In this document: positions 6,933-64,000 of the stretch, piece by piece
Numbering within the stretch: position 1 is the stretch's first letter
Layout: every line of letters begins with the position of its first letter
Assembly: GCA_949751835.1 (NCBI GenBank)
Contig: CATKHK010000116.1
Coordinates: 49,358-113,357, forward strand
DNA from: Blepharisma japonicum
Taxonomy: Eukaryota > Ciliophora > Heterotrichea > Heterotrichida > Blepharismidae
DNA length: 64,000 bases
Reading direction: 5' to 3'
Notes under the pieces: model-generated
Told to the model about the DNA's origin: nothing
The model's database searches: none
Seen by the model: only the letters and a program-made list of their open reading frames with translations
Position numbers and translations under genes: made by a program

Positions 6933-6960
6933 ACTTTATTTATATAATCTTCTAATAAAT

Positions 6961-7830: not shown

Positions 7831-7878
7831 TAATCCCAGTTAATAGGAAATTAGAACAAATTGCTATTAAAGATTACA

Positions 7879-10689: not shown

Positions 10690-13600
10690 ATGGAATTGGT
10701 TTTTCTTTTCATTGTCTTCTCATTGTGCAAAACAATTCAAAGTGCCTCAATTGGCATAAAAGATGGAAATATAGATCCTGGGACAATTATTTGGCCTCAA
10801 GATACTTGATGCAGCACTCCAATTCAGCCTTATCAATCAACTCCTGAAATTTATCACGGATTGAAAATTTACTTCCGACCTTCCTCAACAATCCTAAATG
10901 GTATTTTCCAGATTTTAATATTACAAAGCTGAGCATCATTTTCAATGGACATCATAGGAAATCAAGATAATTCAATAATAATTCCAATGAATGATCTGCG
11001 TGGTGAAAATTGGCTTGTTGGAATTGCTACAAGGTCCTCAATAACTGGACAATTATACGATGTGAATTATTCATTTTCTTTCCTAAGTGCTCCATTATAT
11101 TGGTACAGTCCTAAGACCTTTTCAATGCAAACAGCAGGCAATTCTAATAGTAACAAAATTGGGTCACCAATTGAACTGCTTTTTATAATTGATCTTAGCT
11201 TTTCTTTATGAAAATATGATATTATTGAAATTATACCTGATAGTTCATGGGGTACTTCGGCAAGTGTAAGCTGCAGTTCTGTCAGTCCGCTTGGAAAAGA
11301 AAACTTTCTCTATGGCCTTTATGGAGACCATAATATATCTTGCATAGCTTCATCAAGTTTTAATCCTTGGAATAGCATTTATCCAGATAATAAAAAAATT
11401 ACAAAAAAAAGTGTATATATTTATGGGATTAGCGATGTATATCGTACAGATTGGAGAGCTATAATAAGGGTTTCTGGCTTTACTCTAAGCTTACTTTTGA
11501 AACAACCCATGACATTCCTAAAGATGGAAAAATTACTGTTATTTTTAAAAATGTCGATATACAATCTCCTAGATGGTGGCAAGATCTCAATGGAGAAGGT
11601 GCTGCAAGTGGCCAGTGCTATTTAAACACATACATTAAAGGTGCTAAATGCATTATTGATAGTTCTACATCAGTTAACATTTCTTTTCCTCAAGCTAAGC
11701 AGCCAGCAAGTGTCTTTGAAATAATATTGTTAACCACTATCTCTATAGAAGCGAAAGTAGCATCAATATTTAGCATAGATAATAATTACAACAAGGTAGA
11801 CTCTTCTTCAGATTATTTGCTATGGCCTGTCAATGTAACAAATGCAGCAATGAAAACTCTGAAATTCCATGCTTATAATTCTAATATATATCCAAATATT
11901 GATAGCTATTTTTCTAAAGGACGCTATACTAGCAATTTACAAGTAGGAGCAATCCTGAATAAGAGTTATTATTTATTTTTCATGTCTCAGCCAGGTGTTC
12001 TTAATCAGTGAAATGATACTACCATGCTTAAAATTATGATTCCATTCTCAGATTCATCAGTCCAACTTACTCAATCTTACATTGGGAGCTCCGCAGAAGA
12101 TTATTATGTGTGTGATGATTTGACTGGAAGCAGCAGTGTCTCAGTAAATACATATAGAAACATGACTACAAATTACCATAAGAGAGATCCTGGAAACTCG
12201 GGAGAAATAACAGTTTATTTCAGCAATACAAGCCCTGGATGCATCCCATTTAGCAACCAGTATTATATTTTCGGATTCGGAACTCCTTCAAACTCTTCCA
12301 CAGGAATTATTTCGCTTCCAATGGTTCAGTCAAATTTGGCGACTTTTTATGAAATTTGAGCAAAAGCAGTAACAGGGACTCTTGTAGATATAGGCAGTTA
12401 TGTTTTTTCTGTAATGATAACTACACCTGTGAGCGCTTCTCAGCTCAGAACAGTCCCAGTCTGTATGGATATAACACCTCGAATCCCATTGTATCATATT
12501 TTCACTCCTTTATATGTGGACTATGATTTTACTTCTAAAAAAACTTTGTTTCAGATCCAAGTAGATTTTCAAGACTATATTACATTCAGAGGAGTTGATA
12601 TAGGAGATTCCATTCCAGTTTATTCAAATTCTACAACGCCTCCAAAGGCTACAAAAATTGGCAGCAGTAGTCTTATAATTACAGGGCTAGGAAATTTAAT
12701 TGCGAACTCTGCACCAGTCGAAGTTTATATCCCGAATTACTCAACATACAGTAGCTGATATTATTCTGTCACTTCATTGTTTTATGTAACTCCAAAAGAT
12801 CCATCAACTAAAATGATGATTTTTAGCTTAAGTTCTGGGAATATACCTCAAAATGAACCGACAAAGTTTGGAGCTAAGCCAGTAATTTATGAGTCATTTG
12901 AAGTAGGAGGTTCAGGCTCATTGAGTATTACCAATCTGGTTCTGCAAAATAATAAGCCTTCTTCCGGAGTAGGAGATTACATTGGCATACTTCTTCCTCA
13001 AGGATTTGATGCAGTGTCAGAAACTCTTATTTTGGGCGAAGTCGAATGCCAAAATTTAATAAGAGTTTCATCAGCAGGTGATTATTTCGATGGTTTATTT
13101 ATAATGATGAGAGGAACTGACTCTATCTTTCTATCAAACTCAACTGCAAAAACCCTTACTATACTTGGGTTAAAAGCTGCAAATCATGTGGCTAGCCACT
13201 CTCCTACTCCAGTATCTATGGGCGTATTTTTGATAAATTCAAAAAACTATGGCCTTGGAAAAAGCTGTGATGCATCTTATACACTCAATGTTTATATATA
13301 TCCTGGAACAATCTCGTATAGCTCTTGTCTGCCACTTTTAATCCCAGTTAGAGGGCCTGATTCTGTTGATGTAACTATGATCATTACATTTAATACAACT
13401 CATGAAATTCCTGGAAATGGGATTATTCATATTTCTTTAGATTCTAGCTGGACTTTTACTAATCCTAATTCATGCTATTGTCCTGACTTGTCTGATTATA
13501 ATTCAACTACTCATGTAAGTTGTGCAGTAAATATCATAACAGGAGAGCTAGAACTGAGAGGATTTTCCGCTGTTTCTATAGGTGCTATCACAGTTTATAT

Positions 13601-16600
13601 TGATCATACGCTGCCTCCAATTTCTATAGGCTCAGGAACTGCTACCTGCGCCCAAGTAATATATACACTTGATAATTATGGAAATTATATCGACTATGGA
13701 GCTCACCTTAATCAAAACATAACCCTGATCGAAAGTCCGCCTATTGGCAAAACTTTTCAGCTCACTGCTTTTGCTTATCCTAATATACCAGGAAAAGTCG
13801 CAGACATTTCTTTAGTATTTTCTCTCACAAAAACACTCCCGATTGGGAGTGTTTTACAATTGTATTGTGGATTTTCTCAATGAATTGACACTTTAATATG
13901 AATTCAGGAGATATGCTATTCAAGCTTCGATTATTTATCATGTAAATATATAGATGGGACTATTCAACTTATTACTAATGTTCAAATTCCTGCATCAACG
14001 CAAATTGAAATTTATATTGAAACTGCTTTAGTTTTGCCTATTTCTCCAGGAAAAACTTCATCTGGTATCCAAATTACAACGTATTGGAACGGCATTGTAA
14101 TTACAGGAGATCCAGCTCCTGGGTTTCTTTTTACTGTTGGGCCTAAAACAACGTCCCAGATTACCTTGTCTTCAATTGCTTTTAATGGTATAACTAATAC
14201 TGGGCATTTGTCTTCATATACTTTTAACTTTGCTTCATCTGAGGCAGTAGAAATTGGAGATTATTTTGTCATTCAGTTTCCTAAAGCATTTAATCCTTAT
14301 ATAGGAGACGTGATTTATAGTGACTGCTCACCAAATATCTTATACCTTCCTTGCAGCTCATCATCACTTGGTGGAATCATGTGCAATCCTGACCACTGAT
14401 ATCTAAAGGCATCTGGAATAAATATCACTAAAAATGCCAATGAGCGTTTAGATATAAAAATCGATAAAATCTTAAATCCGCAGTCTTCATCTTATAAATT
14501 CAATATATTTCATTATAATTCTCAAGGGTGAATAAAAGCTTATGGATACTCCAGTAAAACTTTATCAATCGATGGAATACCTTACACTATGAATTTAAAA
14601 AACGTCAGTCTGGATGACTCAACAATAGGTGCAGTTACTAATTATTATTTTAAGATTTCTGGAATTCCTACCGCCAATTTGGGAGCTCTATTGCTATTCC
14701 CAAGTGCCTATAATTTAATTAAGGATAAGCTCTCTTGCGCTTATATGTATTTTACTGAAACTGATGAGCAGATGGCTCATGACTGGAACAATACTATCTG
14801 CAGCTGAAATAAAACTTCTGTTAAATTGCAATTCTCTGAAAATCCTTTCATTAGTAACAACATATATATCATTAGGATTCAAGGAGTGCGCAACCCTGAA
14901 TGAGGATATAAACGAAATGGAGGGTGAGATGTTGAGCTTAAATCCATATTTGGAGATTATTCATTGTGAAGCGATCGGTTTAGCGTGGCAGTATTTTTTG
15001 GCAATCAAATTTCATCAATTTATATGAGATCATATCCCTTTTCAAACCCGACTTATTTAGGTTTCAAGTTAAATGATACCACAATTAGAATTAATGAAGA
15101 TATCGATAAGCCTCTCAAAACAATAAAATTACTGCCAGGACTCCAAAGCAAAGATCTAACAGTTTTAGTTCCATTAACTTGGCCGCTTAAATCCAAATCT
15201 CTGGTGCTCACTCCTTCGGTTAGCTTTAATAATTCCACCACTTCAAAAGTATCATGCAGTTCAGCTTTTCATGATTGAACTCTAAAACAAATGAGCTCTT
15301 CAATGCCGTTTAGAATTTCAGCGCTATCTGAAGCATCACCAGGGTACTATTATATTGATTGAAGTATTTCCGAAGTTTCACAAGAAGGGGTTTCTAATTA
15401 TATATATCAAGTTACTTCACAAACAGTTGTAGAAGTATGCAATACAACTTCATCTGTTGTCACAATTGAAATTGCTTCCATTCCAACACTTTTTGTTGGA
15501 TATACAAGTATTCCAATTGCGGTAAAAATTTCAAACTCTCCAGCAACAGACATGAGCATAAATTTATCTATTAATCCAGCTAGTTCTGATATTTCACTTA
15601 CGCCAAGCTCTCTTATTTTTAATCCTGATATAAATGTTCTTTATTTCCAAATCGATGTAACTTCAAGCTATAACTCAGCCCAAGCATCACATACTTTATC
15701 ATTTACTTTGGAAGGGACTGACTCAAATCTTTTTATTTCTCCTCCACCAATCACACTTAAAATTTCTTCAAATCTTACTGTAACCTCTCCTGAGTATTCA
15801 ATATCTTATGAAATTTTAAATGGTAATGAAGCAGCTTTCAATATTACACCAAGCCAAAATGGAGTATTATATTGGAGCATTTCTTGTTTACCTAACAATT
15901 TTATTCCTACCTTCAATGATTTGCACAGTTTGTGTGCTGATTTAGCTGCCAAGAGTGATGGCACTTTGAGTTTAAGGGAACAATTAATGAGAGACTATAG
16001 GAACACTGAAATCGATATCGATGAATCAAAAGGCGACACAGATGCTTATTCATTTTTCAGAAGAGTTTACACAGAGCACTGCTCTCAGAAATGGTACTCC
16101 TCAGAAGTAATCTATGCGAACAAAACAATATCTATAAATTTAAACTGACTTATGGAAGGAACGTGATATACCTTTGTTTCATATTTTGATAATAGATTTG
16201 GAAAAAATCCTCAACAAATTATTAATTTTACGACACCTTCAATATCAGAAATTTCTATCATTTCAGTTAATTTTGATACAGATGAATTAACTCTAGATCA
16301 AGGAGAAAGCATAAGATTTGCTGTGGCCAAAAATATGGGGATCAACCCTTTGTGGCTTTCAAATGAAAAAATAAATATAGATTCTAGTTCAGCTAAATTC
16401 TCTTATGAAATTCTTTATGACAGAAGCAAATCGCTTTACTCTTCATTAGATATTTTAAATAATTTCAACCAAGATCAAGCAATAGATGATATAAAAAATG
16501 ATGTAGATCAGTCTCCTACTTTTAATGAAGGCAAAATTTCAGCTCCCTCTTGGGCATTCCCTATAGTTTTATCAAACATTAGTCCTGAAAATGCCACTTT

Positions 16601-19600
16601 TATTGCAGCATCTACAAGCAATGGCAGAGTATGCACATCCTGCTCTAAGATCTTAAGCAAAAATCCGATTTATGCATGACAAGTTATAAATAAATTAGAT
16701 GCCGATTTTAATGATGTTCCTGGGGCATGCACTAATGTCGCAGCAAATTCTAATACGTCAATTACAGTAGCAGGATTATCAGAGTGAAATACTTATTATT
16801 GTTATTTTACAGCTTGCAGCGATTTCTCGTTATGAAACATCTGCATGGATTATGAAGATAATTCACCTTTGCAAGAGTTTATTATTAGCACTACAAATAC
16901 ATCATTTAATGGAAGTATTGATTGTGCAGACACTAATTGTCAAGTGTGTTCAGCCCAAGGACAGTGCTTACAATGCTTTCCTCCAACTTATTATTTAGAT
17001 AGCTCAAACAAATGCAGCTTGTGTGGAAATGGGAAATATTCTGACGGGATTCAGTGCTATAGCTGCTCCAATCCAGCATGCGATATTTGTTCTGGGCCAT
17101 CTCAATGTTCTATATGTTCCAATCTAACTCTTCATCCAGGTCCTGTTGGGGAATGTATATCATGCCCAGATGGAAAATACTCCAGTAATGATGGCTCTTC
17201 ATGTTTATCTTGCTCTGACAACTGCAAAACCTGCATAGATACTTCAACTACTTGTACATCTTGCTATACCGGATTTTTGTTTAATAACACTTGCCTTCAC
17301 TCTTGCCCTGCTAGCTATTATTATTCCAGCATTATAGGTACATGTGATAAATGCAATTATATATGCAAAGAATGCATTTATGCCAGCACTAACTGCACTG
17401 CATGCTACCCAGGATTTACGCATTATCCAAATACTTGCAAATTAGCATGCGTTAAAGGAACTTATTATGATGGCTTGCAGTGCCAGCCATGCTCTACAAA
17501 TTGTGCTACCTGTAGTGATAAGCCTAATAATTGTACCTCTTGTGCAGGATATTATAAATATTCTTATGGGAACGCCTGCTATAGCGCTTGCCCTGTGGAT
17601 ATATCTATAACTTCTGGGTACACGTGCAAAAACTGTACCTCTCCATGCGCTACTTGTAAAGGAATTTCTACTAACTGTACAAGCTGCATTTCGCCTTATT
17701 ATTTATATCAAGGAAATTGTGTAGAATCTTGTCCTCAGTATTATACACCAGTTTCACTATCAGGGGTTGTTACTTGTACACCTCCATGCCCACAAGGGAA
17801 AATTTTGAATTCTGTAGGAACTTGTGACTCATGTGACACAAGCTGTGCTGCTTGCTCTGGAACAGCCACATATTGTACCAAATGTAGCGATGCCAATCTA
17901 TATGCATACCAAGGCAGCTGCATATCATCTTGTCCTAAAGATACCACGGTTCCAATAAATGGCCAATGCCAAAGCTGTAGCTCCTCATGCTTAACTTGTA
18001 GTGTAAGCTCTGATAACTGTACTTCTTGTCCAGCAGATACTTATTTATGGGGAAAGCAATGCTTAGCAACTTGCCCAGGAGGATATATGGCCTCAACCCA
18101 AAATGGAATTAATCTATGTCTTCAATGCGATACTATTTGTGAAACATGCGCTGAAGCCATTAGTAAATGCACATCATGCAAACTTGGCTCATACAAGCTT
18201 GTTGATACTTGTTATAAATGTGGAACTATGTGTGCTTCTTGCAGCTCAAGCATGGATTGTGATTACTGTGAAGATTCTACTACACAGACAATAGATATGT
18301 TTTATAATCCAGGAAACTGCATTTGTGTCGGTTCTACATATTATAACGGGGTAGCTTGCCAAAGTTGTGGACAGTACTGCTTAGCATGTAATTCAACTTC
18401 ATGCAATCAATGTCTATTAGATTCAATGGCTTTGGCTATAAATAATCCATCAGACTGCTCCTGTGTTGGAGCTTCATATTATGATGGATCTGTATGCCAA
18501 AGCTGTGGCGATCACTGTTCATCCTGCAACGAAAATCAATGCATCAAATGTAGCGTAATTTCTATGATAAATGACCCAAATAACAGTAAAAACTGTATAT
18601 GCCCTCCTGGATCTTATTACAATCCTAGCAATGACAAATGCTGGCCATGCAGTTCCAAATGTGCGATTTGCTCGAGCTCTGATAATTGCTCTCGATGCAC
18701 TCAATCAAACGGAATGAGTATAAGTGCTAAATATCCAGGAACTTGTGAGTGCGATGCTGGATGGACTGATTATAGTACTGCTTGCGCGAATTGTACTAAT
18801 ACTCAATATTGGGGTGGATATGAATGCTTGAATTGCCAAGGACTCTGTTCTTCTTGTTCATCTCAGACAGATTGTTTATCATGCAAGACTCACTCAACTT
18901 TAACAGTCAACAATACTTGCATGTGCGATGATGGATTCATTCAAGATAAAAGCCAATGCTTAGCATGCCCTAGCTTATGCTCTGTCTGCTCAAATCAGAC
19001 TTCATGCACCATTTGTCGGCCAAATTCATCATTTGGCTCTGATAACAATTGTCACTGCAATTCAGGATTCCAAGCAAACTCATCTGGATATTGTGTAGCG
19101 ATCTGTGATAGCTATTGCCAGACTTGTGACGTAGACAATGGAAAAGTTTGTCTGTCATGCATTACAAATGCTGAATTATTTAATAATAGTTGCTTTTGCA
19201 CTGCTGGCTCATATTATGAACTCATCTCGAATAGCTGCCAGTGTAAGATAGGCTATAAATTAATTTTTGGTAAATGTGTTCTTTGCAAAAATTACTTAGC
19301 AGAGTCAGATATTAAAAATTCATCAGCTTTTGATAGTAACTTTGCATACATTAATATTGAATTTTCAGTGAATTTAAACACTTCATTAGATAGCTCCTGC
19401 TCAAAAGTTCTTACAAGCTATTCTTATAGCAGAATGGGAAAAGATCCAGTGTGCTCTTGGTCTAGCACTAGTACTATAAAAATCATTCTAGGAGTAAATT
19501 ATACTCAATGGTCAGACATAATATATTTAGACGGAACATATCTTATAAAAAGCACAACTGATCAATGCACAACTGATTATCAGCCCTTAAGCGTTAAGCC

Positions 19601-22600
19601 CTTAATTCCTTCAAGCTCATATCCTGTCGCTGTTTTATCCGGGCCAAAAAATGTGTCTCTTAATTGCGGCACATCTTTTAACTATACTACTGACTTATCA
19701 ACAGGAAATTTAGGTGGTGTGTTTACTTATAATTGAAGCGCAACAATAAGTTGAACAAATGATACTTTTGTGCATTCCGTCAGCTCTAATAACAAATCCA
19801 GTCTTGAAATTAGCAATAGCTGATTTCCCAAAAGCCAAGCTAATTATTTTGTTACATTGAATGTAACGTTAATGAACAATAAAAATTATAGCAGCTGGAC
19901 TACTTTAACGGTACAATTTGGATGGGGAAACTCTCTAAATGTCCAATTCGACCAAGGAGATAGTATAACTATAAAATCTCCTGACGCGGTGACATTGAAA
20001 GCCAAAGTTCTTTCAACTTGTGGGGGTTCTACAAATACAATAGGATGGGCATGGGCGCTTCAAAGCTCGAAGCCATATATGAACTGGAAACCAAGCTCAA
20101 ATGTAGACAAGCTCTCAATATCACCATATTTTTTTACACCTGGAGGAACTTATTTGATTGATGCAATTGCTTCGCAAACAGCCAATGGAACCACAACTAG
20201 GGGCACCTCAAGTATTAATATTAATGTTGGCTATTCGTCTCTAGCTATCATTTTATCAAGCTCAGATGCAAGCATCTCACCTAATAAGGATTTTTATATT
20301 GATGCCAAAAATTCTTATGACCCAGACAGTCTTACATCAACTTTGACCTATTCGTGAATTTGCAGAAACCATACAGATGGCTCAGACTGCAAAGGTTCAG
20401 ATGGTAATCTGTTGATATCTAATGAAATTTATTCAAGTTTAACAATCCCATCATCAAGGTTCATATCTGGGTCTAAGTGAGATATCACTTGTGAAATATA
20501 CAAAGATACCAGAAGGTCTAATATGACAGTCACAATAACAGTTTTAACGAGTAGCACAAATACAATTGTGGCTATTCCTGCAAGCTCTCTTAAAGTCAGC
20601 AGCTCACAGATTATATCATATACAGCTGATGTCACCACAGATCCTGGATCAAGTTTATTATGAACTCTATCTTCAGGGCAAGATATCATGATTTCTCCAG
20701 ATTATTTACCTACACTTACAATCCCAGCTGACACCTTGAGTGATGGAGGAATATATGTATTCCAACTAGCAGTTGATGATGGGTCAGTTACTTCTACTGC
20801 TCAGTTAACTGTTGAAGTAAATGCAGGGGCCGTATGTACAGGATCTATACAAATAAGCCCTGGTCAAGGAACTGCGTTGATTGACTTATTTACAGTTTCT
20901 ATATCAGGTTGCTATGACAGAGATGGAGATGACTATCCTTTAACTTATGCTTTTCTTGATAACTGGGATGGTAAGTTATATACACTTGGGTACAAATCTC
21001 AAAGCAGCCAATCGATTAATTATTTGTTTCCAGGGTATAATACAATTTCTTCTCATGTATGTGATCAGTTATCAGGCTGCAGTGATGATCAATTAGTTGT
21101 AAATATTTGGGAATATGGAAGCAGAAGATATTTATTAAGTGACTCCTTAAGCGACGCTTATTTGAGAAATACAATAGATAAAGACAAAGTCCCTTCAAGT
21201 ATAGTTTTATTCTGCAGTTCTGCTAAAATTGATGGATCTTTATTTTCCCAGATGTGAAATGACATTGAAATATATGTAAATAGTAATAAAATGAACAATA
21301 ATTTATTAAGTTGTTTATTGGAAGCACTTTATGTAATGAGTAATCAATACGAACAAATGAATATCACTATGTATAATGAGTTCTTTAAGATACTTAATAA
21401 TGTTTATGTTAACAATACTTCTATAATACCAAGCCATAATGATTTGATAAATATTGTTGATCTTGGTGATAATTATAGACTTTTTGGTAATTTGACTAAT
21501 TATGAAGATCAATCTCTGGAAGATTTTATTATTGAAGCAGATAACTTATACCACTCATGAATGACTCGGGCTACAAAATCAGATTTACCTTCTCAAAACT
21601 CTATTTCTAATACCCAAAATACCGCTAATACTATAATCTTCAAAAATAGAGATTTTTCTACCAAAATGCTAAATAAAACTGCACAAATTGAAAGTAACAG
21701 AAAAATTGTTTATCCTTCAAAGCTATCTTTTAACAGTAGCGAAATACTAAATCTCTGAATAAAATACTATAATACTTATCACAGTGACTACTCTGACATT
21801 GTTTCTCTAAAACTGACACAATCAGGAACTTATAATAACTTTATTCTAAATATCACTGATGAATACGATACATCATTCCAAACAAATAGTTATCCTTTCC
21901 AAATTGAACTGCCCATCAATAAAAATAAACTAGAGGAAGAAATTTGGGTATGCAACTTTTATAACGAAAACCAGGCAGAGTGGAAGGAATCGCATTGCAA
22001 TGTTGTGGACTCTAAAAATAATAGCGTGACTATTGAAGTCTACCACTTTTCGATGTATAAAATTTCAGCTAGAAACCCAAGATCAGATAATCATGCACCT
22101 ATATTTATAGTAATTGGAGCTGGATCGCTTACTTTACTATTTATTTTTGTGATAATAATATATGACAAATTGCATAAAGGTAGCTTGAAGATTGAAAAAT
22201 CGTCAAATTTATATGAAGTCACTCAAAATACAGGGAGAAATGAAGAAGGAGTACAAAGAGTTCCTATAAATGCAATGGTTTCAGAATCACAGCAAGTAAT
22301 TACTGAGGATCAACATTTTCTGAAAAAAGACACTAAACAGCGTAATATTCCAAATTTAGAAGAAACACAAAGAAAAATTGAAGAAAAAAGAGAAAAAAGG
22401 CTTTTGAAAGGGCATTTAACTTGTGGGCTATTTTGCACATCTGAGAATGTTTTCTTGAGAATTTTTAGGCTTTTTACACTTCTTGAAATAATTTTGTTTG
22501 AATTTTCAATTGAAGGAATACTTTTCAATCTATTTGAAGACACTGATATAGGTACTGATAAATCAACAAAAGAACTTTTTATTGATTATGATATGATTTA

Positions 22601-49500: not shown

Positions 49501-52500
49501 TTTTTCTCCTTCATAGCCATATTCGCATACAAAACAAGAATCTGGATTATTGCTCTGTAACGCGAAACAATGAGTTAGAGATGATATAAAACAACGATTA
49601 TCAACGTCACGTAAGTATCCCTCAGCACAATTATTGCAAGTGTCTCCTTGAAACGCTGTTTCGCATTTATGGCAGGTATTAGGATCATTGCTAGCAAGAG
49701 TAACGCAATTAGTAATTGATGTTTGAAGACAAGCTGAGTTTTGATCATGTAAGTATCCTCCTGAGCAATCAGAACAAGTTGTTCCTGTATAACCTGTTTC
49801 GCATTTATGACAAGAAGTAGGAGTATTAGCAGTAAGAGTAGTGCAGTGAGTAATAGACGATTGAAGGCATGCTAAATTTTCGTCATGTAAATAGCCTTGA
49901 GCGCAATCAGAGCATGTAGTACTAGAATATCCTGTTTCGCATAAATTGCAAGTAGTTCAATCATTGCTTGCAAGTGTGACACAATGAGTTATTGTTGTTT
50001 GAAGACAAGCTGTGCTTCCATCATGCAGATATCCTTCAGAGCAGTCAGTGCAGGAAGTTCCTGAATAGCCTGCTTCGCATTGATGACAAGAAGTAGGAGT
50101 ATTGGCAGTAAGGATAGAGCAATGGGAAATTGATGATTGAAGGCAAGCTGAATTTTCGTCATGCAAATAACCTTGAGAACAATCAGCACATTTTGCTCCA
50201 GAAAATCCAGTTTCACAGGATTGGCAAGTGTCAGCATCGTTACTTACAAGCGTAGTGCAATGAGTTATTGTTGTTTGAAGACAAACTGAGTTTTGATCGT
50301 GTAAATATCCTAGAGAGCAATCAGAACAAGTAGCTCCAGAGTAGCCTGTTTCACATGCATCGCATGCTTCACCAGCCCAACCTAAATTACATTGATAGCA
50401 AGCATCACCATTATCGCTAACAACAATTGCGCAATTTTCTAGAGTCGAAGGAGTGCAATACTTATTTTTGTCAGGCAAATAATTAGCTGCGCAACTATCG
50501 CATTTAGTTCCAGTATATCCTTCTATGCATTCATGGCAAATATTGGGATTTCCTTGCGCAATTGTTTTACAATTTGTCAATGATGATTGAAGACAATTTG
50601 AATCAGTATCAGGCAAATAATATAGAATACAACTCGTGCATTTTTCGCCTTCATAGCCATATTCGCATACAAAACAAGAATCTGGATTATTGCTAGGTAA
50701 CGCAAAACAATGAGTTAGAGATGATATAAAACAACGATTATCAACGTCACGCAAGTATCCCTCAGCACAATTATTGCAAGTCTCTCCTTGAAATGCTGTT
50801 TCGCATTTATGGCAGGTATTAGGATCATTGCTAGCAAGAGTAATGCAATTAGTAATTGATGTTTGAAGACAAGCTGAGTTTTGATCATGTAAGTATCCTC
50901 CTGAGCAATCAGAACAAGTAGTTCCTGTATAACCTGCTTCGCATTGATAGCAAGAAGTAGGAGTATTGGCAGTAAGAGTAGTGCAGTGAGCTATAGACGA
51001 TTGGAGACAAACTGAATTTTGGTCATGTAAATAGCCTTGATCGCAATCAGAGCATGTAGCACTGGAAAATCCTGTTTCACATAAATCGCAAGTAGTAGGA
51101 TCATTGCTTGCAAGTGTGACACAATGAGTTATTGTTGTTTGAAGACAAGCTGAGCTTCCATCATGCAGATATCCTTCAGAGCAGTCAGCGCAGGAAGTTC
51201 CTGAATAGCCTGATTCGCATTGATGACAAGAAGTAGGAGTATTGGCTGTAAGAGTAGAGCAATGGGAAATTGATGATTGAAGGCAAACTGAATTTTCGTC
51301 ATGCAAATAACCTTGAGAGCAATCAGTGCATTTTGCTCCAGAATATCCAGTTTCACAGGATTGGCAAGTGTCAGCATCGTTACTTACAAGCGTAGTGCAA
51401 TGAGTTATTGTTGTTTGAAGGCAAACTGAGTTTTGATCGTGTAAATATCCTAGAGAGCAATCAGAACAAGTTGCTCCAGAGTAGCCAGTATCGCATGCAT
51501 CGCATACTTCGCCAGCCCAACCTAAATTGCATTGATAGCAAGCATCACCATTATCGCTAACAACAATTGCGCAATTTTCTAGAGTAGAAGGAGTGCAAAA
51601 CTTATTTTTGTCAGGCAAATAATTAGCTGCGCAACTATCGCATTTAGTTCCAGTATATCCTTCTATGCATTCATGGCAAATATTGGGATTTCCTTGCGCA
51701 ATTGTTTTACAATTAGTCAATGATGATTGAAGACAATTTGAATCGGTATCAGGCAAATAATATAGAATACAACTCGTGCATTTTTCTCCTTCATAGCCAT
51801 ATTCGCATACAAAACAAGAATCTGGATTATTGCTATGTAACGCAAAACAATGAGTTAGAGATGATATAAAACAACGATTATCAACGTCACGTAAGTATCC
51901 CTCAGCACAATTATTGCAAGTCTCTCCTTGAAACGCTGTTTCGCATTTATGGCAGGTATTAGGATCATTACTAGCAAGAGTAACGCAATTAGTAATTGAT
52001 GTTTGAAGACAAGCTGAGTTTTGATCATGTAAGTATCCTCCTGAGCAATCAGAACAAGTAGTTCCTGTATAACCTGTTTCGCATTGATGACAAGAAGTAG
52101 GAGTATTAGCAGTAAGAGTAGTGCAGTGAGCAATAGACGATTGGAGACAAACTGAATTTTCGTCATGTAAATAGCCTTGAGCGCAATCAGAACATGTAGC
52201 ACCAGAATATCCTGTATCACAGCTATCACAAACAGCTCCTTTCCAGCCGATGTTGCACAAATGGCAATCATTAGGGTCATTGCTTTTAAGAGTAGTGCAA
52301 TGGGTGATTTCTGTTTGAAGACAAACCGAATTTTCATCTGGTAAATAATTATCAATGCATTCTGTGCATGTAGTCCCTTTATACGGAGATTCACATTCAG
52401 CACAAGAATCGCCTTTACCTCCTGTAAGTGTTAGACAGTGATTAATTGATGCTTGGAGGCAGGCTGAATTTTCATCGATTAAATACCCTTCAGTGCAAAC

Positions 52501-55200
52501 ATCACAGTCATCTCCGGAATAGCCTGCATCACAACTATCGCAGTTAGTTCCCGTCCAGCCTGCATTGCATGTATCGCATACTTCACCATTACCACTAGCA
52601 ACTATTTTACAGTTGTATAGATCAGAACGAACACAAAGTCTGTTTGTATCTAGCTTGTAGTTAAAAGTGCATTCTACGCAGTGATTTACGTCGTTCTGTG
52701 CTAATCGATTGCAATATTGAATTTGGCCCAAAAGGCATTGTGAATCTGTATCTGGAATATAGCCATCTTCGCACCATGCACATTTATTTGGGCTTTCTTT
52801 TACAAGCATTTTGCAATGAGGTTGAGTTGATTGGAGACAATGATATTGGTCATCTAGTAAGTAGCCATCAATGCACTGCAAGCATTGGGTTGCATCAGGA
52901 ACATTAAGTATCTTGCATACTGTATAGTCAGAATAAATACAGTTAAATGATCCATCAATTATATAATGAGCATCACAAGTTTTACAATCAGTTCCACTGT
53001 AGTGCTCTTCACATGTATTGCAGAGTTCATGATCACTGCTTTCAGTTTTAAGACAGTGTCCCCAATCTGTTAATGATGACCTAAAGCACTGCCCAGTTGT
53101 ATCAGGTAATAAACCATTATTACAAGTATGGCAATGGGTGCCATCTCCACTTTCAACTACCTGGCAGAAGCCTATGTCAGACGAAACACAATTTCAATTA
53201 GTATCGCGTAAATAATCAGAAAGGCAGCTGTCACATAAGTCTCCTGTATAACCATCAAAGCATGCTTGACATTTGGCACCATCAATATTGGCAATGTTGC
53301 AATGCTTTATAGATGAGGCTACACAGTAAGAGTTCACATTAAGCAAATAGCCTTCAGCGCACTTATCACAAATTGTCCCTGTATAGCCAGTTTCACATAA
53401 ATCGCAAACACTCCCATCGTCGGCATTACAAGTTTTGCAGAAGGAGACTCCACAATCGCATGATCCAGTAGCATTGAGTTGGTAGCCTTTTTTGCATTTC
53501 ATGCAGAAGGAGTCTCCTGAATAAGGACAATTGCAATTTGAAGAGGAAGACCCACAAGAAGCGCAGTTTAAGGTGTAGCCTGCAGAACAGGCTGTGCAGG
53601 TTATGGCATCAGAAAAGGTGCTACAGTGTTGGATAGGTGATTGAATACACATCCCTTGGCTAAGGACATACCCAGTCTTGCATGTAGAGCATGTATTTCT
53701 ATCAGAGCATGTATCGCAGCCATCCTTCACGCTGCTACACAAATAGCATTTATCATTTTCTTTAAAGTAGCCTGACTGGCATTTAGAGCAAACATATTCA
53801 TTTGTGCAAGTCTCACAGCCTGTAATTCAGCCACTACAGAGCTTGCATTCTTTGTTATCAGTATCCCAGAAACGCCCACTTGAGCAGGTCACACAGACAT
53901 CTGGAAAAGTGCTCCAAGCTACGTCACAATTAACAAGTGACGAAAGCGAACAAGTTTTCAAATCATTGACCAGATAATTTTCATTGCAAACTGTACAAGT
54001 TAACCCATCCATACTGCAAGTTTTACAGTTAGGAATCTTGATGCTGCATGCTGAACAAGTCTTAGGAGAGGTGGATGTCTCTAGGTAAAAGCCGCTTGCA
54101 CATTTGTAGCAAGTTTCTGAGTCCTGATTGACAGGGATATCACAATTATCAAGGTCACTTATGTAGCATCTACCTATGTTGTCTACTTTTGCTGGGTTAT
54201 CGCATTGATAGCAAGTTGTCCCATCCGCGCTACAAGATATGCACATTGGAATTGGAACTGAGCATTCCTCACAAATTTTGGGGTCTCCATTCCAGTGATA
54301 GCCATATGCACATTGGTCGCAAGTGACTCTATCTGGGTTACAAAGATTACAGTGCCCTCCACAATTACTAAGTGTTTTGCAAACGTTAAAGTCCCAGTAC
54401 CACCCATTTGAACAAGTTTTACAACTCCATTCATCATAAACTCTATCGCAATGTTCAAGATTTGACGCAGTACAGCCGCCATTGTCATTTAATAAAGTAC
54501 CTTGAATGCATTTTGTACAAGTGTTGGGATCTGAACAAGAAATACAATTTTCATCTATTCTACTGCATGGTATACAGTTGCCAGAAGCCTCATAATAGCC
54601 ATCTTGGCATACATCACATGCTGGGGCATTTGTGCAAGATATACAGCCGGGTAGCTTGTCACCACATAATTTGCAGCTAGAGCCGTCCAGGTAGTAGCCT
54701 GACTCACATTTTGTACAAGTGCCAGTGTCTGAACAAATATGGCAGTTAGGAATTAATGAACTGCATGATACGCAGTCTAAGTAATAGCTAGCTGAGCATG
54801 TGTCACATGTATAAGAAGAGGCAACCACATCACAGTTATTTAGAGAAGACGTTGTGCATCCTCCTTTATTGTCTGGCTTGTCAGTTTCTGAGTTTATGCA
54901 AGTCCCACAAAGTTCTGTGGTTGCACAAGCTTCACAACCAGCGTCTTCATTTGTGCAGGAAGCGAGAAGATTTCTTTGATTTTGGCTTTTTTGAGTATTA
55001 TTGGGCACTTTTTCTAAATTGGTTTGGTTAAAAGTTGAGTTGCTTTGAATTAATTGATTGAGTTGACTATGGTCATTGAAGAGTGGGCTTCAATTAATAC
55101 TAGAGCTTTTAAAGCTCCCTTGAGTCACTGAATTAGTTTCTTTTGATGCAGAGACTCTTAAAGTTGAGAAGAGAAGGAAAAGTATTCCAGCCACAGACAT
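40600..55200 (-). CDS. giant Cys-rich REJ/GPS polycystin-1-like surface protein, copy 3
   Basis: 4,866 aa, ATG at 55198-55200, TAA at 40600-40602, one frame across 14.6 kb with TGA=Trp (e.g. 55090-55092, 53827-53829, 53194-53196, 49957-49959, 41200-41202). The start is chosen because it opens a signal peptide (MSVAGILFLLFSTLRVSA); the upstream open frame lacks an ATG. After a short Asn/Gln-rich stretch, residues about 70-3,620 are almost entirely Cys-rich modules: first mixed furin-like ones, then a long run of about 46-residue units with the pattern C-x11-C-x7-C-x10-C-x2-C-x8-C. Next come REJ/PKD-like sequence (44040-41950, with FQISISGCYDRDDEDYPLLY), the GPS-like VYHFSMYKLSE (HFS near 41563-41571), TM1 (about 41400-41480) and four helices (40630-41085). 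Unlike copies 1 and 2 it lacks the large Cys-poor N-terminal region. Likely a rod-like surface receptor. Confidence 0.85.
40630..41571 (-). other. GPS-like element, TM1 and four-helix membrane block of giant gene 3
   Basis: CVYYNEGNKTWDETNC, then VYHFSMYKLSEAP; TM1 APLYILVVTLFIGIALAPIV. The linker carries TPAHTPRESSRN and a Cys pair (ESCCGDA), about 100 residues and low complexity. IEGHLTIGLLYYRSGFSRVARL leads into TM2; TM3 FGYMILAIAVAIPVEIFML, TM4 VAVTLGASILIGSIIGVVML, TM5 AVSFLWGILIEIFVMQTIYM. The H-x-x-x-G-L...R..R entry before TM2 and the (F/I)-V/I-x-Q after TM5 match the polycystin-1 order. Confidence 0.65.
48930..52200 (-). repeat. 1,140-bp in-frame tandem amplification, about 2.9 copies
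   Basis: Landmarks recur at exactly 1,140-bp spacing: the strings at 49021, 50161 and 51301, and those at 49555, 50695 and 51835, differ by only a few bases per line. 1,140 bp equals 380 codons (about eight Cys modules), so each duplication kept the frame and the cysteine phase. Copies are roughly 51061-52200, 49921-51060 and 48930-49920 (the last truncated, its far end diverging). Single-base differences exist, including one that creates a TGA (Trp) at 49957 where the other copies have CCT (Pro). Confidence 0.95.
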
Positions 55201-57304
55201 TTTTATAAAGCCATTTGCATGTGTCACAAATATGGACAAATTAACAGTTATACTTTGGAAGAATTTAAAAGGGAAAATTAAGTTTTTGGAAGAGTTAGAA
55301 AGATATTTTAAGGAATTAGCTTTAACTTTTACGACCTCAGATATTAGGCCCAACTTTGTAAATCTCACCAAGGGAAGGACTTGAAGATGGGGGTAAAAGA
55401 TATTTTGCAAGTTAGTACATTTTTGACAGGGTGCAACCTAAAATTAATTCTTCAAATAAGAAAATTAGGCCTTCTATCAGATATTCTTAGCTAACTTTTT
55501 TATAAATAAAATCCACTTAGACATATTTAATCAATGAGGAATCTATAGACTCAATTAAAATGGAGCAAAGCTTCAATAAATCATAATGCTCTTCTTTCTC
55601 AATTTAATCAATATTTAAATACGCCTATTCAAGGGGATTCTTTTAGTTTGCTTAATGATAATTGACTTTCCTGGAAAATTATCTTAAAAAGTGGAGGAGA
55701 AAAATAAAATTAAAAATTCTAAAAGCTAATTTAATGCGAACACTTGTGTAAGGTCAAGCTCCTTGAATTAAACTCTAAAATATCATTTGGAGCAATTTTG
55801 GCCAACTCTTTTTGAATTGAAGAAATTAATATTCTCTTATCATTTTCAAATGACAAAAACACGTGTCGAAATTTCTTATAAAAAATTAAGTATTTTAAGT
55901 CAAGCCCATCCCTGCAAATATGGCTTTTTGATCACTGGCAACTGCTACTCAGACATGTTCACAGAGGGGGAAATCCAAACAATATAGTAAATTTTTGAAT
56001 AATTACGTATTTCTATTATTTTAATGATCAGATTAATTATTCCCAACAATTATTCGCATATTATCTTAAAAGATTTGTATGCCCATTCCACTTTCCGGTA
56101 ATCTAATAATAAAATTTAGATTTATTTAAACATTGAAAATTGAGGTATTGTATACTATAATGACAATATCAATACCTTTTGCATGCGGTGAATAAATGAT
56201 TTTTTATTTAAATCAATTATACCACTAAATTGTAATTTAAGAATACAAAATTCTCTGGGCTAAAATCGCTTAATAAATTTGTATTTTTGATTTTATTTAG
56301 CCCTTCTCTAAGATTTAGCCTGGGGATATTGCTGATTCATTAGAAAAGGATAAAAGATGATAGGCTAAAATCATTTTCTTAGCAATCTATAAAATTATTT
56401 GGGAATGATATTGTCTAGGAAGATAATTCCTAATTGAGTATAGTCAACATCAAAATCCATAAATTTGAATCCATTTCCATAAATGAAAGATGAAGAACAA
56501 CAGTTTCATTTGACAAGAAAATTTAAACTAGCAAGCTGCTAAATTTATTTGAAATAAATTTTACTAGCTTTCATAAGAATTTTTCAAATATTTGTTAAAT
56601 TGAAATCGATCTGAGTGTTTTACCCTAGAAGAGTCATTCAATAGATAAATTGATGAATACTTATAAAAACGTATAGTGTAAAATGGATCTCTTTGGAGAA
56701 ATTTTTAAGAGTCTATTAAGATTGAATATTGTAATTAAGCAGCTTATAAAAAGATGCTCAAGAATTATGTATTAAATATTTCATAATTAATTTTCTCAAA
56801 ATCTATTGAAATAAAAATTTAGAAGATTGGATAAAAATTTTCTTTCTTCATTAAAATTAGTTTATGAGCATTCTTTATTATCTTTTTTTGATTGAAATTA
56901 AATAAATTGAAATGAAAAGCCTTTCAAATGGTAAAAGAGCAGTTTTTGGTAAATTTTAAAACAAAAATCCAAAAAGCTGAATGATTGTCTATAGCAATAA
57001 CTTGAGTTTTAATTCTTCAAATAAACTCTAAATCTTCTTAAAATCACTAATAGTAATTTAGTTAAAACAGATTGGTTTATGCTAAGAGATCTTTCTTTTA
57101 TGTCCATATGAGAAATCAAAATTCTCAATCACATAATTTCTAATAATTTAAAAGCAACACATTTTTTAGGGGTATCTTAATTTGCTCTAAGTTGAATTAG
57201 TTAATAAACACAATTTTTGAAAAATGAAAATAATTTAGATAAGGACTTTCTTAGTAGCTGATTTATTAAGTGAGCAAAATATTGAATAACTATAAAATGT
57301 CTAA
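55201..57304. other. 2.1-kb AT-rich spacer between giant genes 3 and 4
   Basis: Contains the presumed promoter of giant gene 3 at its left end. The frame at 55787-55987 has no ATG start in a sensible place. No other coding signal, RNA gene or repeat was recognised. Confidence 0.5.
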
Positions 57305-57630: not shown

Positions 57631-57825
57631 GCAAGCTTTTTATAAAATGATAAAGTCAATCGTTAAACGAAGAATCACTGCTAAGCATTTCTAAATTTTA
57701 AAAGTTATATTTACTAAACTAATAACAAATTAGCAAAATTTATAATAAGAAGATTTACACTTTTAGAGCTTTATTCAAAAGACTGAAAATTTATTAAAAA
57801 GTCATTTTTTAGAAATGATGATTAT
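57631..57825. other. short AT-rich gap between the pseudogene remnant and giant gene 4
   Basis: No coding content. It presumably includes the 3' untranslated end of giant gene 4. Confidence 0.4.
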
Positions 57826-60800
57826 TTAAAGACTATCTTTTCCTCTTCTTGTTCCTGCTCTCCTTGACTTAATCAAAAGAGCAATATATCTAATAAGCAT
57901 GTAGAAAATCTGAACAATAAAGATTTCCATAAGGATTCCCCATAGGAAGCTTTCAGCCCAATACCCACTCCAATTGTGACAAAAGTCAATATTAAGTATC
58001 ACAATTCCAATGACTGACCCAATAAGAACTGCAATGCCTAGTAATAAAGTCAAAATATTCACTGCTTTTCTTTTTCTTGTTTCCATGCCAGCAATCATTA
58101 GACATTCTAAGTGGACTGCAATAAGGACTGCGAGGACTGTATATCCAAAGTAATTTCCTTCATAATTGTCAAAGATTGTTTGAGTTGACATTTCTCTGCC
58201 TTTATCAGTGTCTTCAAATCCTGAGAATAAGCAACCCTCTACTAATAATTCAAAAATAATAGCAGTAAGTAAAATGAAGACTCTTCTCCATCTTGGCAAA
58301 TCTTTTCTATAATAAATGAGCCCAAATGTCAAGTGGCCTTCCAAAAGCATGCGGAAATTCCCTTTAACTCTGTATTCGTTATATAGTTCTTTTGGATAAA
58401 ACACGGCTTCTGGATCTTTTTTATAATGTCCTGAAGGGCCTAAATTAGTTGCATCTCTGTTTGTATTTTCTCCTGCAAGTTGAGCTTTTTCAGGGTCATT
58501 TCTAGCTTCTTCAGTTTGTACAATTGTCATTTTCACCTTCATAAATGGCTCAGACTGCTCTGAAAGGGCCTCTACCTTCAAAGGTTCCACGTCTTCTTTT
58601 TCTATGTCATCAACTTTCATAGGTTGTTCTGCTGGATTATTTGCAAGCTCAGGGACTGGAGTCACTTTTTTATCTCCTTTTTCTAAGGCATTAGAATTGT
58701 GGGATTTATCCATAAAGACTGTGATTATCATAAGGACAAATCCAATGAAAAATGAGACTATCATAATGATTGTTGGAGCTAAATTGTCTCCACATTCAGG
58801 AGTATAAGTAGGAGGAATGTAAGGGACAATTTCTGTTTCTGAGAGTTTAAATAGGGAGAAATGGGTAAGAGAAAGTGTTATGGTGTCAGTCCCTTGGCTA
58901 GTAATGATACAGCCATCTACGCTCCAAGTTGAAGTTGTGGTGTCATAATACACACAAGAAAGGCCTCTGGTCGCATTTTTGTAATAAGGAATAGTTACTG
59001 TAACTGGGTATCTGTCATCATTGAAAGATTGATATTGCTCACTTGTAGCAGTATATTGGTAATCTTGATATGTACCACTTGTAGAGTAGCTTACAGAAAA
59101 CCAAGGTGAATAGTCATCGGTGACATTATAAGTATTAGCTTTAAAGTTTGTGACTTCGGTTTCATCTATTGGGAGCTTCTTAGGGAAACTTACATCAATA
59201 AACCCAAAGGTTCCGGAAGTTTTGCTGATTGAGTCAGGGAAATTTCTGATTTTTCCGTATTGGATAGGTGAAGTTGAATCTGAAGCTGGAAGCGAGCTCT
59301 GGCCTGGGAGATCATCAACTGTAATATAAGTCATAAAAGCAGTTAAGAAATTATCTGCTTTCAGCAGATAAGTCTCAAATGACATTGCAGCATCGGCTTT
59401 TTTGCTTCCAAAATCTACGTATCCGTTGGAGAACGATACAATAATTTGTAAAATGCTGATTGCATCAGTATTAATAGCAATTGAATTAGCTGTTACTAAA
59501 TTATTGAGCCAAGTCATGAAATTGTCATAAAGAGTGACTGTCATTGAATCAGTCTGGCTTGATAAAGCCAAAACTGCAGCAGCAAAACTCTTGAAGAGTG
59601 ATACTGATACCGAGTTTTGGCTTGCTGCATATGATTGCAAATCATTCCACATCTGTGTGAAAAGAGTATTATCTATTGTGACAGAAGAAGCTATCAATGA
59701 GATTTCACTTGGAATGTTGTCAGGATCAAGAGTTGCTGAGGCATACATAGCTGCATAGTCTGTGTCTTCGAGTTTTCTCTTTAGTGAATCTACTGTGATT
59801 TTGCTTTGGTAAGTGGAGCAGCTTGAAAGTTGGTCGCATGCCTTGATCTTTATTGTGTTGCTGTTAGGGAATAAAGCTGTTGATAGACTGCTGTCTTGAG
59901 TGGATCCAAGCACATACTCTACATTATTCCAGACATCATCATAAGAATAAGTTAGTGGATAGTCTTGCCCATCTTGGTCATAGCAGCCATCAATTGAAAT
60001 TACAAATGAAGTTTGTAAGGCAGTTCCGCTTGTTGGCTGAATATCTACAGACCCATCGCAGGTGGCGCCACTGTTTATGTTTACTATAAGTGATGACGAT
60101 AAAGTATTTCCTGAAGATTCAGTTATTGTAAAGCTGAATTTGTAAGTACTTCCTGGAACAAAAGTATTTGGTGGAATAGAAATGGTAGGCAAATTATCAG
60201 GAGAAATCTTTATTGCGGAGCTGTCACAAGTCCATTTAATGGTAGATCCAGATGATATAGTAGCAGTAGGAGACAAGGTATAAGAGGATCCTGCTGAAAT
60301 TTTAGACGCAGAATAAGGAATGTCTATTGAAGAAGATGAGGCAGTATTTGCTGCTGAAACTTGCACAGTAACTGACGCAGAAGCAGTTCTGTCTCCTGCA
60401 CTTATTAATAGAGTTAAATCATAGCTTGCTCCTGGTATCATTTTTCCTGAAGGAATTGAGAGGCTTGAAGTACTAACAGAAGAGACAAGGTCTTTGTTGT
60501 CAGTTCCGAGACAAGATGTCGCATTTGTTGTATATAAGCAGCTCCATTGGTAGCTCAAAACAGTAGAAGAGCTATCAGGATCTGAAGAGCCATCTCCATT
60601 AATAGAGAAGCCATTCTGGGATGAAGCAGTGCAGCTTGACTTGGAAAGTTTTATTTTCAGAGGAGATGAAGTCACTGTGATGGTAAGTAAAGAATATCCG
60701 GATACAGATGGCTCAGTCGTGCTTTGGCTGGTTGCAGTTGTATTGAATTGGTATGAATATCCACTTGGAAGCACATTTTTGTTTATGACGAGCTTGTTTT

Positions 60801-63800
60801 GCTGCTTGGATGCGGAAAGGATTGCTGAGGAATCAATTGTAGGGACTCCTGTTAAGGCAACATAGCTCCACTTATAAGACACTGAAGACACATCACCGCA
60901 GAATGTTGAAACTGATGCCTTGTAAGTTCTTGAATCTGAAGATTTCATTGTATCAGTTGCTCCTGAGTCAAATACAACTTGAAGAGATGGGGCTGCCTTA
61001 ATTGCTGTTGTCATTGATATCGAGTTTGTGCCTCCAAAGACATTTGTAACTTTTAGAGTGACTACTAATGAGGAGTCAACGTTGCTGGTAAATAGAAGTT
61101 TTGTGATTAAAAGGGATGCTGAAGTTTGTTTGGCAATATAACTAGTGAGACCAGAGTTTTGTGGAGTGCTGGTAGCTGACCAAGTGTAAGTCATAGGATT
61201 ATTCAAATTTCCTGTTGACTTTGAGCCTGAATACTGAAGAGCTGTGTTTCCACAGTCTAAAGAATAGCTTGCAGGCCCAGAAATGACAGCAGTAGGAGTT
61301 GGGTCAGCTGTTTGTCTGACAGTGATATATAACTGAGTATAAGATAAATTGCAAGTGCCTTCTTTTTTAACAATGTTTGTTCCCAATAAATATAACTTTT
61401 CTGCTCTAATAGAATAGCTTTTTCCTAGTTGAATTTTCAGCTTATTTGATCCATCCCATGAGCAGCTGGCTCCAGTTCCCAGTTTACTAATGCTTTGATA
61501 ATCAATAGTATTTGCGCATGCTGCGCTAACTGTTGTATCAACGCCTACACTGAAAGTAACTGTAATGGTAGAAAAATAGGCATCGAAATAAGCATCGGTC
61601 ACATCTGATAATACAAAGTAATTCTTACAAGCTACACATTTATTGCTCACTAAACTATATCCACTATTGCAAACACATGATTGTGAGGATGAGTCGTAGC
61701 TAGAGTTTGCAGTGCAAGAACACTTGGTCTTTACTAGTTCTGCGTTAGTTACACAAGCTGTGCAAGAGTCTCCATCATCTTCGCTACATGTTGTACATAC
61801 TTGGTTGCAGGTAGCTACACATTTAATATCTTTTTGGTAAAATCCGCTAACACAGCTGCAAGTACCGTCTGAATTTGCTGAGGAATGCTTTATGCAAGTA
61901 TTGCAAGTGTCCACAGATTTAGTGCAGATTGAACAATTACTCTTGCAAGCCTGACATGTATTTCCGGATTTTCCATACCCACTACTGCAACTGCATAAGC
62001 CACTATTATCAACTGCTGCATTAGCCACACAAGAGCTGCAAGCCCAATTAGATGAGCATTTCTTGCAGAGTCCTGGACAGGCTGTGCATACTCCACTATA
62101 TGAATAATAATAGTCATTGCATATGCAAACATTTGAAGATAAATCAAAGCTTGCATTTGCATCAGTGCAAGTACAAACTCCACTAGAGAGAGTCATGTGG
62201 CTTGTATCCAAACATTCAGTACATTTAGTAGCTTCATCTACGCATTCTTTGCAAGGAGCATCACAAGCTTCGCATGTATTTGAATCAGTATAATAATAGC
62301 TAGAGCTGCATTGATCGCATGTGTCACCGTCAGAACACTCAGCGCAATTATCCATACACTTAGTGCATGAACCTGGAACGCCATAATACCCTCTGGCACA
62401 TACACAGTCATATGTAGTTGTATCAAACTCCGTATTAGAATCTAAGCAATTATTACAAGTGCCATCATCCAATGTATTGTAAGTCCCACTGCATTTAGTG
62501 CAATAAGTTTGAGAGCTGCATCACAGGCAAGGTTGAACACAAGAAGAAGTAGCTTTATTAGAGCTAAAATAGTAAGTATCATCAGCAACACATACCTTAG
62601 TATCAGTATTAAATGTAGAATGGGTTGGGCATTCACAATCAGGAGTTCCAATCATATGAATTGTATCTATACATAAAGTGCAGGTGGAGGCTGAGGTAGT
62701 ATCGCAAGTTGCACATTCTATGCTACATTTATCACAGCTTTGGTCTGTATCAAAGTAATACCCATAATCAGGGACACATACTTTTGTATCAGTATCAAGT
62801 GTTGAGTGGTCTGGACATGCACAATCAGGAGTGCTTATCATATGCGTCGTATCTATACATGAAGTGCAGGTAGAAGCTGATGTAGTATCACACTTTTCAC
62901 ATTGAGTGCTACATTTTTCACAAGATTTATCCGAATAGAAATAATATCCTTCACTCGGAACACAAACTTTAGTATCAGTGTTAAGTGTAGAATGAGTAGG
63001 GCAGTCACAGTCAGGAACTCCAAGCATATGTGTTGAATCTAAGCAAGAGGTGCAAGTTGAGGCTGACGTTGTAGCACATGTAGCGCATTGTACGTCACAT
63101 AGATCAGTGGTTGTATCTGAATCAAAGTAATATCCCTCACCAGGAACACATGATGATCCACTGAGAGCTGAATTAGCTGGACAAGCACATGTAGGACCAG
63201 TTCCCATATGTGTTGGGTCTTTGCATGCGGTACAGTCACCGGTATCACCATCACAACCATCGCAATTAGTGTCACATTCAGCAGTTGTTGTGTCTGAATC
63301 AAAGTAAAAACCTGTACTAGGAACGCATGTTGATCCACTTAGAGCTGAGTTAGCTGGACAAGCGCATGTAGTACCAGTTCCCATATGTGTTGGGTCTTTG
63401 CATGCAGTGCAGTCGCCGGTGTCTCCATCGCAACCATCACAATTAGTGTCACATTCAGCGGTTGTTGTGTCCGAATCAAAATAATGTCCGCCATTAGGAA
63501 CGCATGTTGATCCGCTTAGAGCTGAGTTGGCTGGACAAGCGCATGTAGGACCAGTTCCCATATGTGTTGGATCTTTGCAAGCACTGCAGTCTCCGGTGTC
63601 GCCATCACAACCATCACAATTAGTGTCACACTCAGTAGTTGTTGTATCCGAATTAAAGTAAAACCCAACACTAGCAACGCATGTTGATCCACTTAGAGCT
63701 GAGTTAGCTGGACAAGCGCATGTAGGACCAGTTCCCATATGTGTTGAGTCTTTGCAATCAGTACAGTCACCGGTATCTCCATCACAGCCATCACAATTAG

Positions 63801-64000
63801 TGTCACATTCAGTAGTTGTTGTATCCGAATCAAAGTAAAACCCAGTACTAGGAACGCATGTTGATCCGCTTAGAGCTGAGTTAGCTGGACAAGCGCATGT
63901 AGGACCAGTTCCCATATGTGTTGAGTCTTTGCAAGCACTACACTCTCCGGTATCTCCATCACAGCCATCACAATTAGTGTCACATTCAGTAGTTGTTGTA
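57826..64000 (-). CDS. giant REJ/GPS polycystin-1-like surface protein, copy 4 (5' end outside window)
   Basis: More than 2,050 codons in one frame, TAA at 57826-57828, open to base 64000; the TGA at 62521-62523 is Trp. The visible N-terminal part is a 59-residue repeat array (63110-64000) with Asp-rich loops (CDTNCDGCDGDTGDC) and, from 62521 to 63100, diverged 62-residue units. Furin-like CxxC modules follow to about 61620. Then come REJ/PKD-like sequence with the family signature FVISIDGCYDQDGQDYPLTY, a GAIN-like helical region, and the GPS-like CVYYDTTTSTWSVDGC...SLTHFSLFKLSE (HFS at 58855-58863). TM1 is near 58710-58785, followed by an acidic cytoplasmic linker of about 120 residues and four helices (57870-58300). 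The C-terminal tail is basic (KSRRAGTRRGKDSL). Of the four copies its GPS-like site is closest to the canonical form. Confidence 0.85.
57870..58960 (-). other. GPS-like element, TM1 and four-helix membrane block of giant gene 4
   Basis: CVYYDTTTSTWSVDGC, then LTHFSLFKLSE, TM1 APTIIMIVSFFIGFVLMIIT. The linker (KSHNSNALEKGDKK onward) is rich in Glu/Lys/Pro and has no PLAT-like strands. LLEGHLTFGLIYYRKDLPRW leads to TM2 VFILLTAIIFELLVEGCLF; TM3 YFGYTVLAVLIAVHLECLMI; TM4 NILTLLLGIAVLIGSVIGIV; TM5 ESFLWGILMEIFIVQIFYML. Confidence 0.65.
63110..64000 (-). repeat. 177-bp in-frame tandem repeat array (at least five units, continues past window edge)
   Basis: The landmark CCCATATGTGTTG recurs at 63203, 63380, 63557, 63734 and 63911, exactly 177 bp (59 codons) apart. 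Units are nearly identical in DNA, differing at scattered third positions. Older units further in (CATATG at 62653, 62839, 63025) are 186 bp apart and clearly diverged. Each unit codes ACPANSALSGSTC, a Tyr/Phe turn, an Asp-Thr-rich loop, CDGCDGDTGDC and KDxTHMGTGPTC. Confidence 0.95.

Follow-up and report, generated by a model that had tools for sequence, protein, structure and literature searches.

The proteins described here share with polycystin-1, PKDREJ and the sea urchin protein suREJ a giant ectodomain, a REJ domain, a GAIN domain with its GPS and a first transmembrane helix (TM1), all in identical order. A 2012 EMBO J paper is said to have reported GAIN domains in Tetrahymena.

GAIN domains cleave their own chain at an HL-T/S site, and the freed stalk can serve as a tethered agonist, as described for the 7TM adhesion GPCRs and for polycystin-1 (PMC9672506). 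The same review confines the domain to these two groups, and PMC12716839 reports that other genes of diverse non-holozoans also encode it; a GAIN domain in a protist is therefore not in itself new. For the Tetrahymena proteins MTA, MTB and MRC1, PMC10901506 describes five TM helices together with a Cys-rich growth-factor-receptor domain; it assigns MTA and MTB, which determine mating type, to the cell surface and not to cilia. According to a 2025 report, vesicles that cilia shed carry mating-type proteins (PMC12029339). In Blepharisma, the gamone 1 receptor is still termed putative (PMC10892320).

The window, by which we mean the whole stretch of DNA that was analysed, comprises 64,000 nt of contig C116 (CATKHK010000116.1, positions 49358–113357) from a genome of 45.2 Mb in 224 contigs. 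It carries four giant genes, A to D, whose products, judged from their sequences, are probably autoproteolytic adhesion-type REJ-GAIN surface receptors with a five-helix stub. The outer half and the domain order are those known from the polycystin-1/suREJ family; what appears to be new is the same device placed on a five-helix stub, and in the openly accessible literature (subscription papers lay outside the scope) we noticed no paper on a REJ-GAIN-5TM family.

Layout and reading frames of the cluster

With TGA read as Trp, an ORF scan of the window yields four giant open frames, A and B on the + strand and C and D on the − strand. These are far longer than expected by chance: when the window was shuffled base by base 20 times, no stop-free run exceeded 265 aa. 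The A/B and C/D pairs are convergent, as the preliminary description had proposed, with one ubiquitin-domain gene (37870–39957, 695 aa) between them. UGA codes for Trp in the nuclear genetic code of Blepharisma, and its introns are mostly 15 and 16 bp long (PMC9942806); the organism fits this genus. TGA makes up 28 of 57 Trp codons in A (second frame), 29 of 63 in B, 7 of 40 in C and 1 of 16 in D. Ordinary neighbours occupy positions 881–8925 (ribosomal S5-like, methyltransferase, DNA polymerase subunit B, NIF phosphatase, 3-hydroxyacyl-CoA dehydrogenase and IQ protein genes). A PADLOC run returned no match and has no bearing on the giant genes.

All four genes follow one layout, in which a REJ domain, a GAIN domain with a GPS-type site and TM1 are followed by a linker in the cytosol and then by the four-helix block. 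The common C-terminal plan suggested beforehand is upheld by alignment, with C-terminal identities to A of 67% for B, 37% for C and 33% for D. The signature SISGCYDRDxxDYPL, said to occur in all four, is exact in A, B and C, but D has SIDGCYDQDGQDYPL.

Gene A (10690–22910, +) is read in two frames, 10690–11625 and 11451–22910, which break near 11,480; here (11451–11625) A is about 190 bases shorter than B and the reading shifts, which may reflect a deletion, an unusual intron or an assembly fault. Gene B (24444–36950, +) has a signal-peptide-like ATG at 24501, giving 4,149 aa. In both proteins a long Cys-poor N-terminal region precedes a furin-like Cys-rich stretch (Pfam E 7e-5 in A and 1.2e-5 in B, below cut-off), which in A spans 16915–19490 (+, ends approximate) as judged from this match and from Cys content.

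Gene C (40600–55410, −) has an ATG at 55200 that is signal-peptide-like by eye, giving 4,866 aa, and is Cys-rich over most of the protein. Its N-terminal piece (53701–55200, −) matches a Giardia VSP profile at 8.4e-9, and the piece 50911–52410 matches EGF_laminin at 9.3e-19 in hmmscan. The EGF-like rod (48900–52200, −, ends approximate) consists of 138-base units within a 1,140-base higher-order repeat, the copies of which are 90–98% identical per 200 bases (mostly 95–98%) over the matching stretch; this near identity suggests a recent expansion that lengthened the rod. Gene D (57826–64000, −) is an open frame at 57826–63999 with no start codon in the window, its N-terminus being lost where the window and C116 (113,357 bases) end together, and its product is at least 2,057 aa long. 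A Cys-rich tandem repeat in D (63094–64000, −; 177-base unit, 5.1 copies, 89% matching) runs into the contig end. Putative signal peptides were recognized by eye at the starts of A, B and C.

These results qualify several points of the preliminary description. Its Cys-rich rods are confirmed, the laminin-EGF and VSP matches in C being above cut-off and the furin-like matches in A and B below it. Its protein lengths of 4,000–4,900 aa hold for B and C, but D is cut by the contig end and the frame of A is broken. Its intron-free genes are seen only as long open frames, with which tiny in-frame introns would be compatible.

REJ domain and GAIN region

In the genome search the REJ domain (PF02010) scored above the curated cut-off in each of the four genes, at E 4e-27 or better, and in none of 14 control genomes, which supports the REJ-like region proposed earlier. 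It lies at 20019–21107 (+) in A (E 1.5e-27 in the genome profile search, 2.3e-31 in hmmscan), at 34062–35117 (+) in B (4.2e-27, and 8.2e-31 in hmmscan of a piece), at 42502–43596 (−) in C (1.9e-33 and 9.4e-33) and at 59749–60918 (−) in D (1.0e-33 and 3.4e-34). Whole-length hmmscan missed the domain in A, B and C; shorter pieces revealed it in A, C and D, and another cut did so in B.

Downstream of REJ, each protein has a GPS-type tripeptide HFS, found at 22044–22052 (+) in A, where the putative cut would follow F, at 36030–36038 (+) in B, at 41563–41571 (−) in C and at 58855–58863 (−) in D. In A and B, which gave no Pfam GPS match when searched singly (genome search and hmmscan), the site is placed by its alignment column. 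In C the alignment is joined by a Pfam GPS match of 19.2 bits, below cut-off. The GPS motif of D (58849–58959, −) reached 24.5 bits, above cut-off, in the genome search only, hmmscan giving 19.2 bits against a cut-off of 22.5; in the genome search one of the 14 controls matched, below cut-off. Paralogs on C174, C19, C5 and C78 carry a canonical or near-canonical GPS (Pfam E 8.5e-13 to 1.2e-7). These four paralogs also have the second Cys pair of the canonical GPS, which A–D lack, the window clade having HFS at the GPS.

A REJ-to-TM1 profile built from eight members (the four window proteins and four paralogs) matched the GAIN domain of ADGRL3 at E 2.5e-11 over about 220 profile positions, and a GPS-to-end profile of 20 members matched ADGRF1 at 2.9e-6. 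Among these 20 aligned members, whose pairwise identities range from 12 to 75%, the GPS His is kept in 20/20, as is a Ser or Thr two residues on, and of 230 gapless columns six are invariant, four of them GPS residues. The alignment (A2) is restricted to members that are complete and can be aligned, chosen by eye on the basis of their first GPS Cys: 21 were tried, L021 was not found by pattern, and the set leaves aside truncated, orphan or GPS-less loci (e.g., L024, L026, L030, L031, L034, L037–L041, L043 and L044), L033 as a near-copy of L032, and REJ loci that were not fetched. From a further alignment (A5), L001 was left out owing to its frame.

An AlphaFold model of D from REJ to the C-terminus (1,030 aa, four sequences) was poor (pLDDT 43.7), and only its GAIN match was used. 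Foldseek ranks 1–4, 6 and 8 were chains with GAIN domains (best E 3.9e-7), but their superpositions reached TM-scores of only 0.09–0.18 over the query, and rank 5 went to an axonemal chain that is unrelated (3.4e-4). The modelled order before the membrane is helices, then strands, then TM1, which is the order of GAIN subdomains A and B. Family profiles, conserved residues and this fold search from a poor model together indicate that a GAIN domain, with its cleavage site of GPS type, probably lies before TM1. The GPS-like element of the preliminary description is thus borne out at the family level, by Pfam, profile-to-structure and fold matches as well as by residue conservation.

Membrane part and comparison with polycystins

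In hydropathy plots, TM1 is separated by a linker from a further group of helices; five segments exceed the threshold in each of B, C and D, against four in A. TM1 lies at 22101–22157 (+) in A, 36087–36143 (+) in B, 41410–41466 (−) in C and 58714–58770 (−) in D. The four-helix block (TM2–5) spans 22374–22907 (+) in A, where TM5 falls below the hydropathy threshold and was placed by alignment; in the other genes alignment and genome search locate it at 36387–36947 (+, B), 40603–41103 (−, C) and 57829–58326 (−, D). Genome-wide, the block gave 36 match rows, some of them pieces of one copy, and 16 of the 36 have no REJ within 4 kb upstream. Three tandem loci on C41 at about 65–72.5 kb (L031, L037 and L038) and one on C52 (L039) are frames of 211–239 aa with a four-helix block, no REJ match upstream and, by eye, no in-frame GPS or TM1. 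A miniature on C92 (L026, −) combines, by eye, a signal-peptide-like start, about 65 aa outside, TM1, linker and four-helix block, with no REJ or GPS.

Of the profile searches proposed beforehand, those for REJ and GPS/GAIN were positive, but PLAT was found neither in the linker (hmmscan of window genes and paralogs, E up to 1) nor anywhere in the genome by profile search, the 14 control genomes being silent too. PKD_channel and Polycystin_dom were likewise absent from the window in hmmscan and genome search. The window proteins therefore differ from the polycystin-1 family in that no PLAT or TRP-like channel was detected and in having five helices, against the eleven of polycystin-1; they also bear Cys-rich EGF/furin-like regions. 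They are not complete polycystin-1s on PLAT, channel and helix number alike, and full membership in that family finds no support, the four-helix block having no convincing sequence or fold match to a solved structure either.

The four proteins could instead be degenerate polycystin-1s that lost PLAT and the TRP-like half, kept the four-helix block as a remnant of TM2–TM5 and serve as ciliary sensory subunits together with polycystin-2 channels. The REJ-GAIN-TM1 order is that of polycystin-1, and the genome does encode separate channels (35 PKD_channel and 9 Polycystin_dom matches), one of which resembles solved polycystin-2 chains at up to 3.9e-19. However, no channel is fused to these proteins and linkage to channel genes is slight: none of the 51 REJ loci listed is followed on its own strand by a PKD_channel match within 10 kb, and 2 of the 51 have a channel match no more than 20 kb away (a count made without a random control). 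The block itself also showed no solved relative. Searched against the PDB at E up to 10, a profile of linker and four-helix block from four paralogs had no hit; with the 20-member profile, and with a single paralog, the only hits were adhesion-GPCR chains at the GPS region and chance matches; and the block model (pLDDT 51.8) found no fold match (best Foldseek E 0.55). The structures searched include 6a70 (chain A) and PKD1L3, and because no polycystin-1 chain spanning TM2–5 was seen among them, the lack of a match speaks only mildly against kinship. We regard descent by such loss as possible though rather unlikely.

With the adhesion GPCRs (ADGRL3, ADGRF1, ADGRB3/BAI3) the window proteins have in common the GAIN domain, its H-x-S/T site and the hydrophobic stalk that directly precedes the first helix. 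They differ in having a REJ domain upstream and a five-helix stub with a linker where adhesion GPCRs have 7TM; membership in that class was rejected, since no seven-helix domain follows GAIN and the helices are arranged as 1+4 around a long linker.

The family in the genome and its proposed working

The genome holds at least 54 REJ matches, which merge into at least 51 loci. Among the 51 listed, 23 have a GPS within 2.5 kb downstream and 19 a four-helix block within 4 kb; 38 have either and 13 neither. In the 23 loci with a GPS match (GPS at E up to 1), the GPS starts 748–1,105 bases downstream of REJ. For 23 of the 51 listed, another REJ locus lies within 20 kb, whereas 500 random placements along a single 45 Mb line gave 2.2 such loci on average and at most 8; this excess is in keeping with the large clustered family foreseen in the preliminary description.

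Its two tandem pairs were resolved differently. In a tree of the 20 rows of A2, A and B are sisters (100/100), but the partners of C are loci on C15 and C190 (87/91), not D. Given these placements, the cluster is best read as one true tandem pair (A and B) plus two members that diverged earlier. The same tree sets L050, L051, L052 and L053 apart from the window clade as a second REJ-GAIN-5TM clade; their GPS is fully canonical (CSCNHL/FT) in three of the four, and the C78 paralog has CRCSHTS.

It is also conceivable that the proteins are mainly a structural or protective coat, a Cys-rich glycocalyx of surface-antigen type in which REJ and GAIN are merely spacer and maturation site. Very long Cys-rich regions, nearly identical internal repeats and the VSP match in C would suit such a role, but stalk and four-helix block are conserved over the 20 aligned members, and a window-like block follows REJ at the 19 of 51 listed loci noted above. 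A simple anchor would need none of this, and we consider the coat reading unlikely.

That the family comprises heterotrich counterparts of MTA, MTB and MRC1, self/non-self surface proteins perhaps including the gamone 1 receptor, would be compatible with a receptor reading and draws on the five helices and Cys-rich regions present in both, but we find it doubtful, since the likeness is drawn from published descriptions (PMC10901506), helix number and a Cys-rich region are a weak criterion, the main text of that paper names no REJ, and the 51 listed REJ loci exceed the need of a two-mating-type system. The resemblance is a lead, not membership.

We return to the autoproteolytic receptor reading. 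The sequences contain REJ, GAIN/GPS in the family, conserved cleavage residues and 1+4 predicted helices, with no detectable PLAT or channel. On this reading, the giant extracellular part would run from a Cys-rich EGF/furin-like region, which in A and B is preceded by the large Cys-poor one, through REJ to a GAIN domain at its end. GAIN would cut the chain at the GPS (H-F-S), leaving the ectodomain non-covalently bound to a membrane stub in which a short hydrophobic stalk leads into TM1, followed by a variable linker in the cytosol and the remaining four helices. Were the mechanism like that of adhesion GPCRs and polycystin-1, the stalk would become exposed when the Cys-rich ectodomain is pulled or binds a ligand, and this would switch the five-helix stub. 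For A–D themselves, we infer actual cleavage, agonism by the stalk and a location at the surface. Output through separately encoded polycystin-2-type channels would be a guess, no link to them having been found here.

A far bolder generalization, which we hold to be improbable, is that REJ-GAIN with a five-helix stub constitutes an alveolate class of self-cleaving, tethered-agonist receptors without 7TM or channel, including mating or gamone receptors of Blepharisma related to the Tetrahymena five-helix proteins.

With a GAIN device mounted on five helices in a large family of clustered protist genes, the basic working of this device could be separated from G-protein coupling and from TRP channels. 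For Blepharisma, the family would provide concrete candidates for surface recognition.
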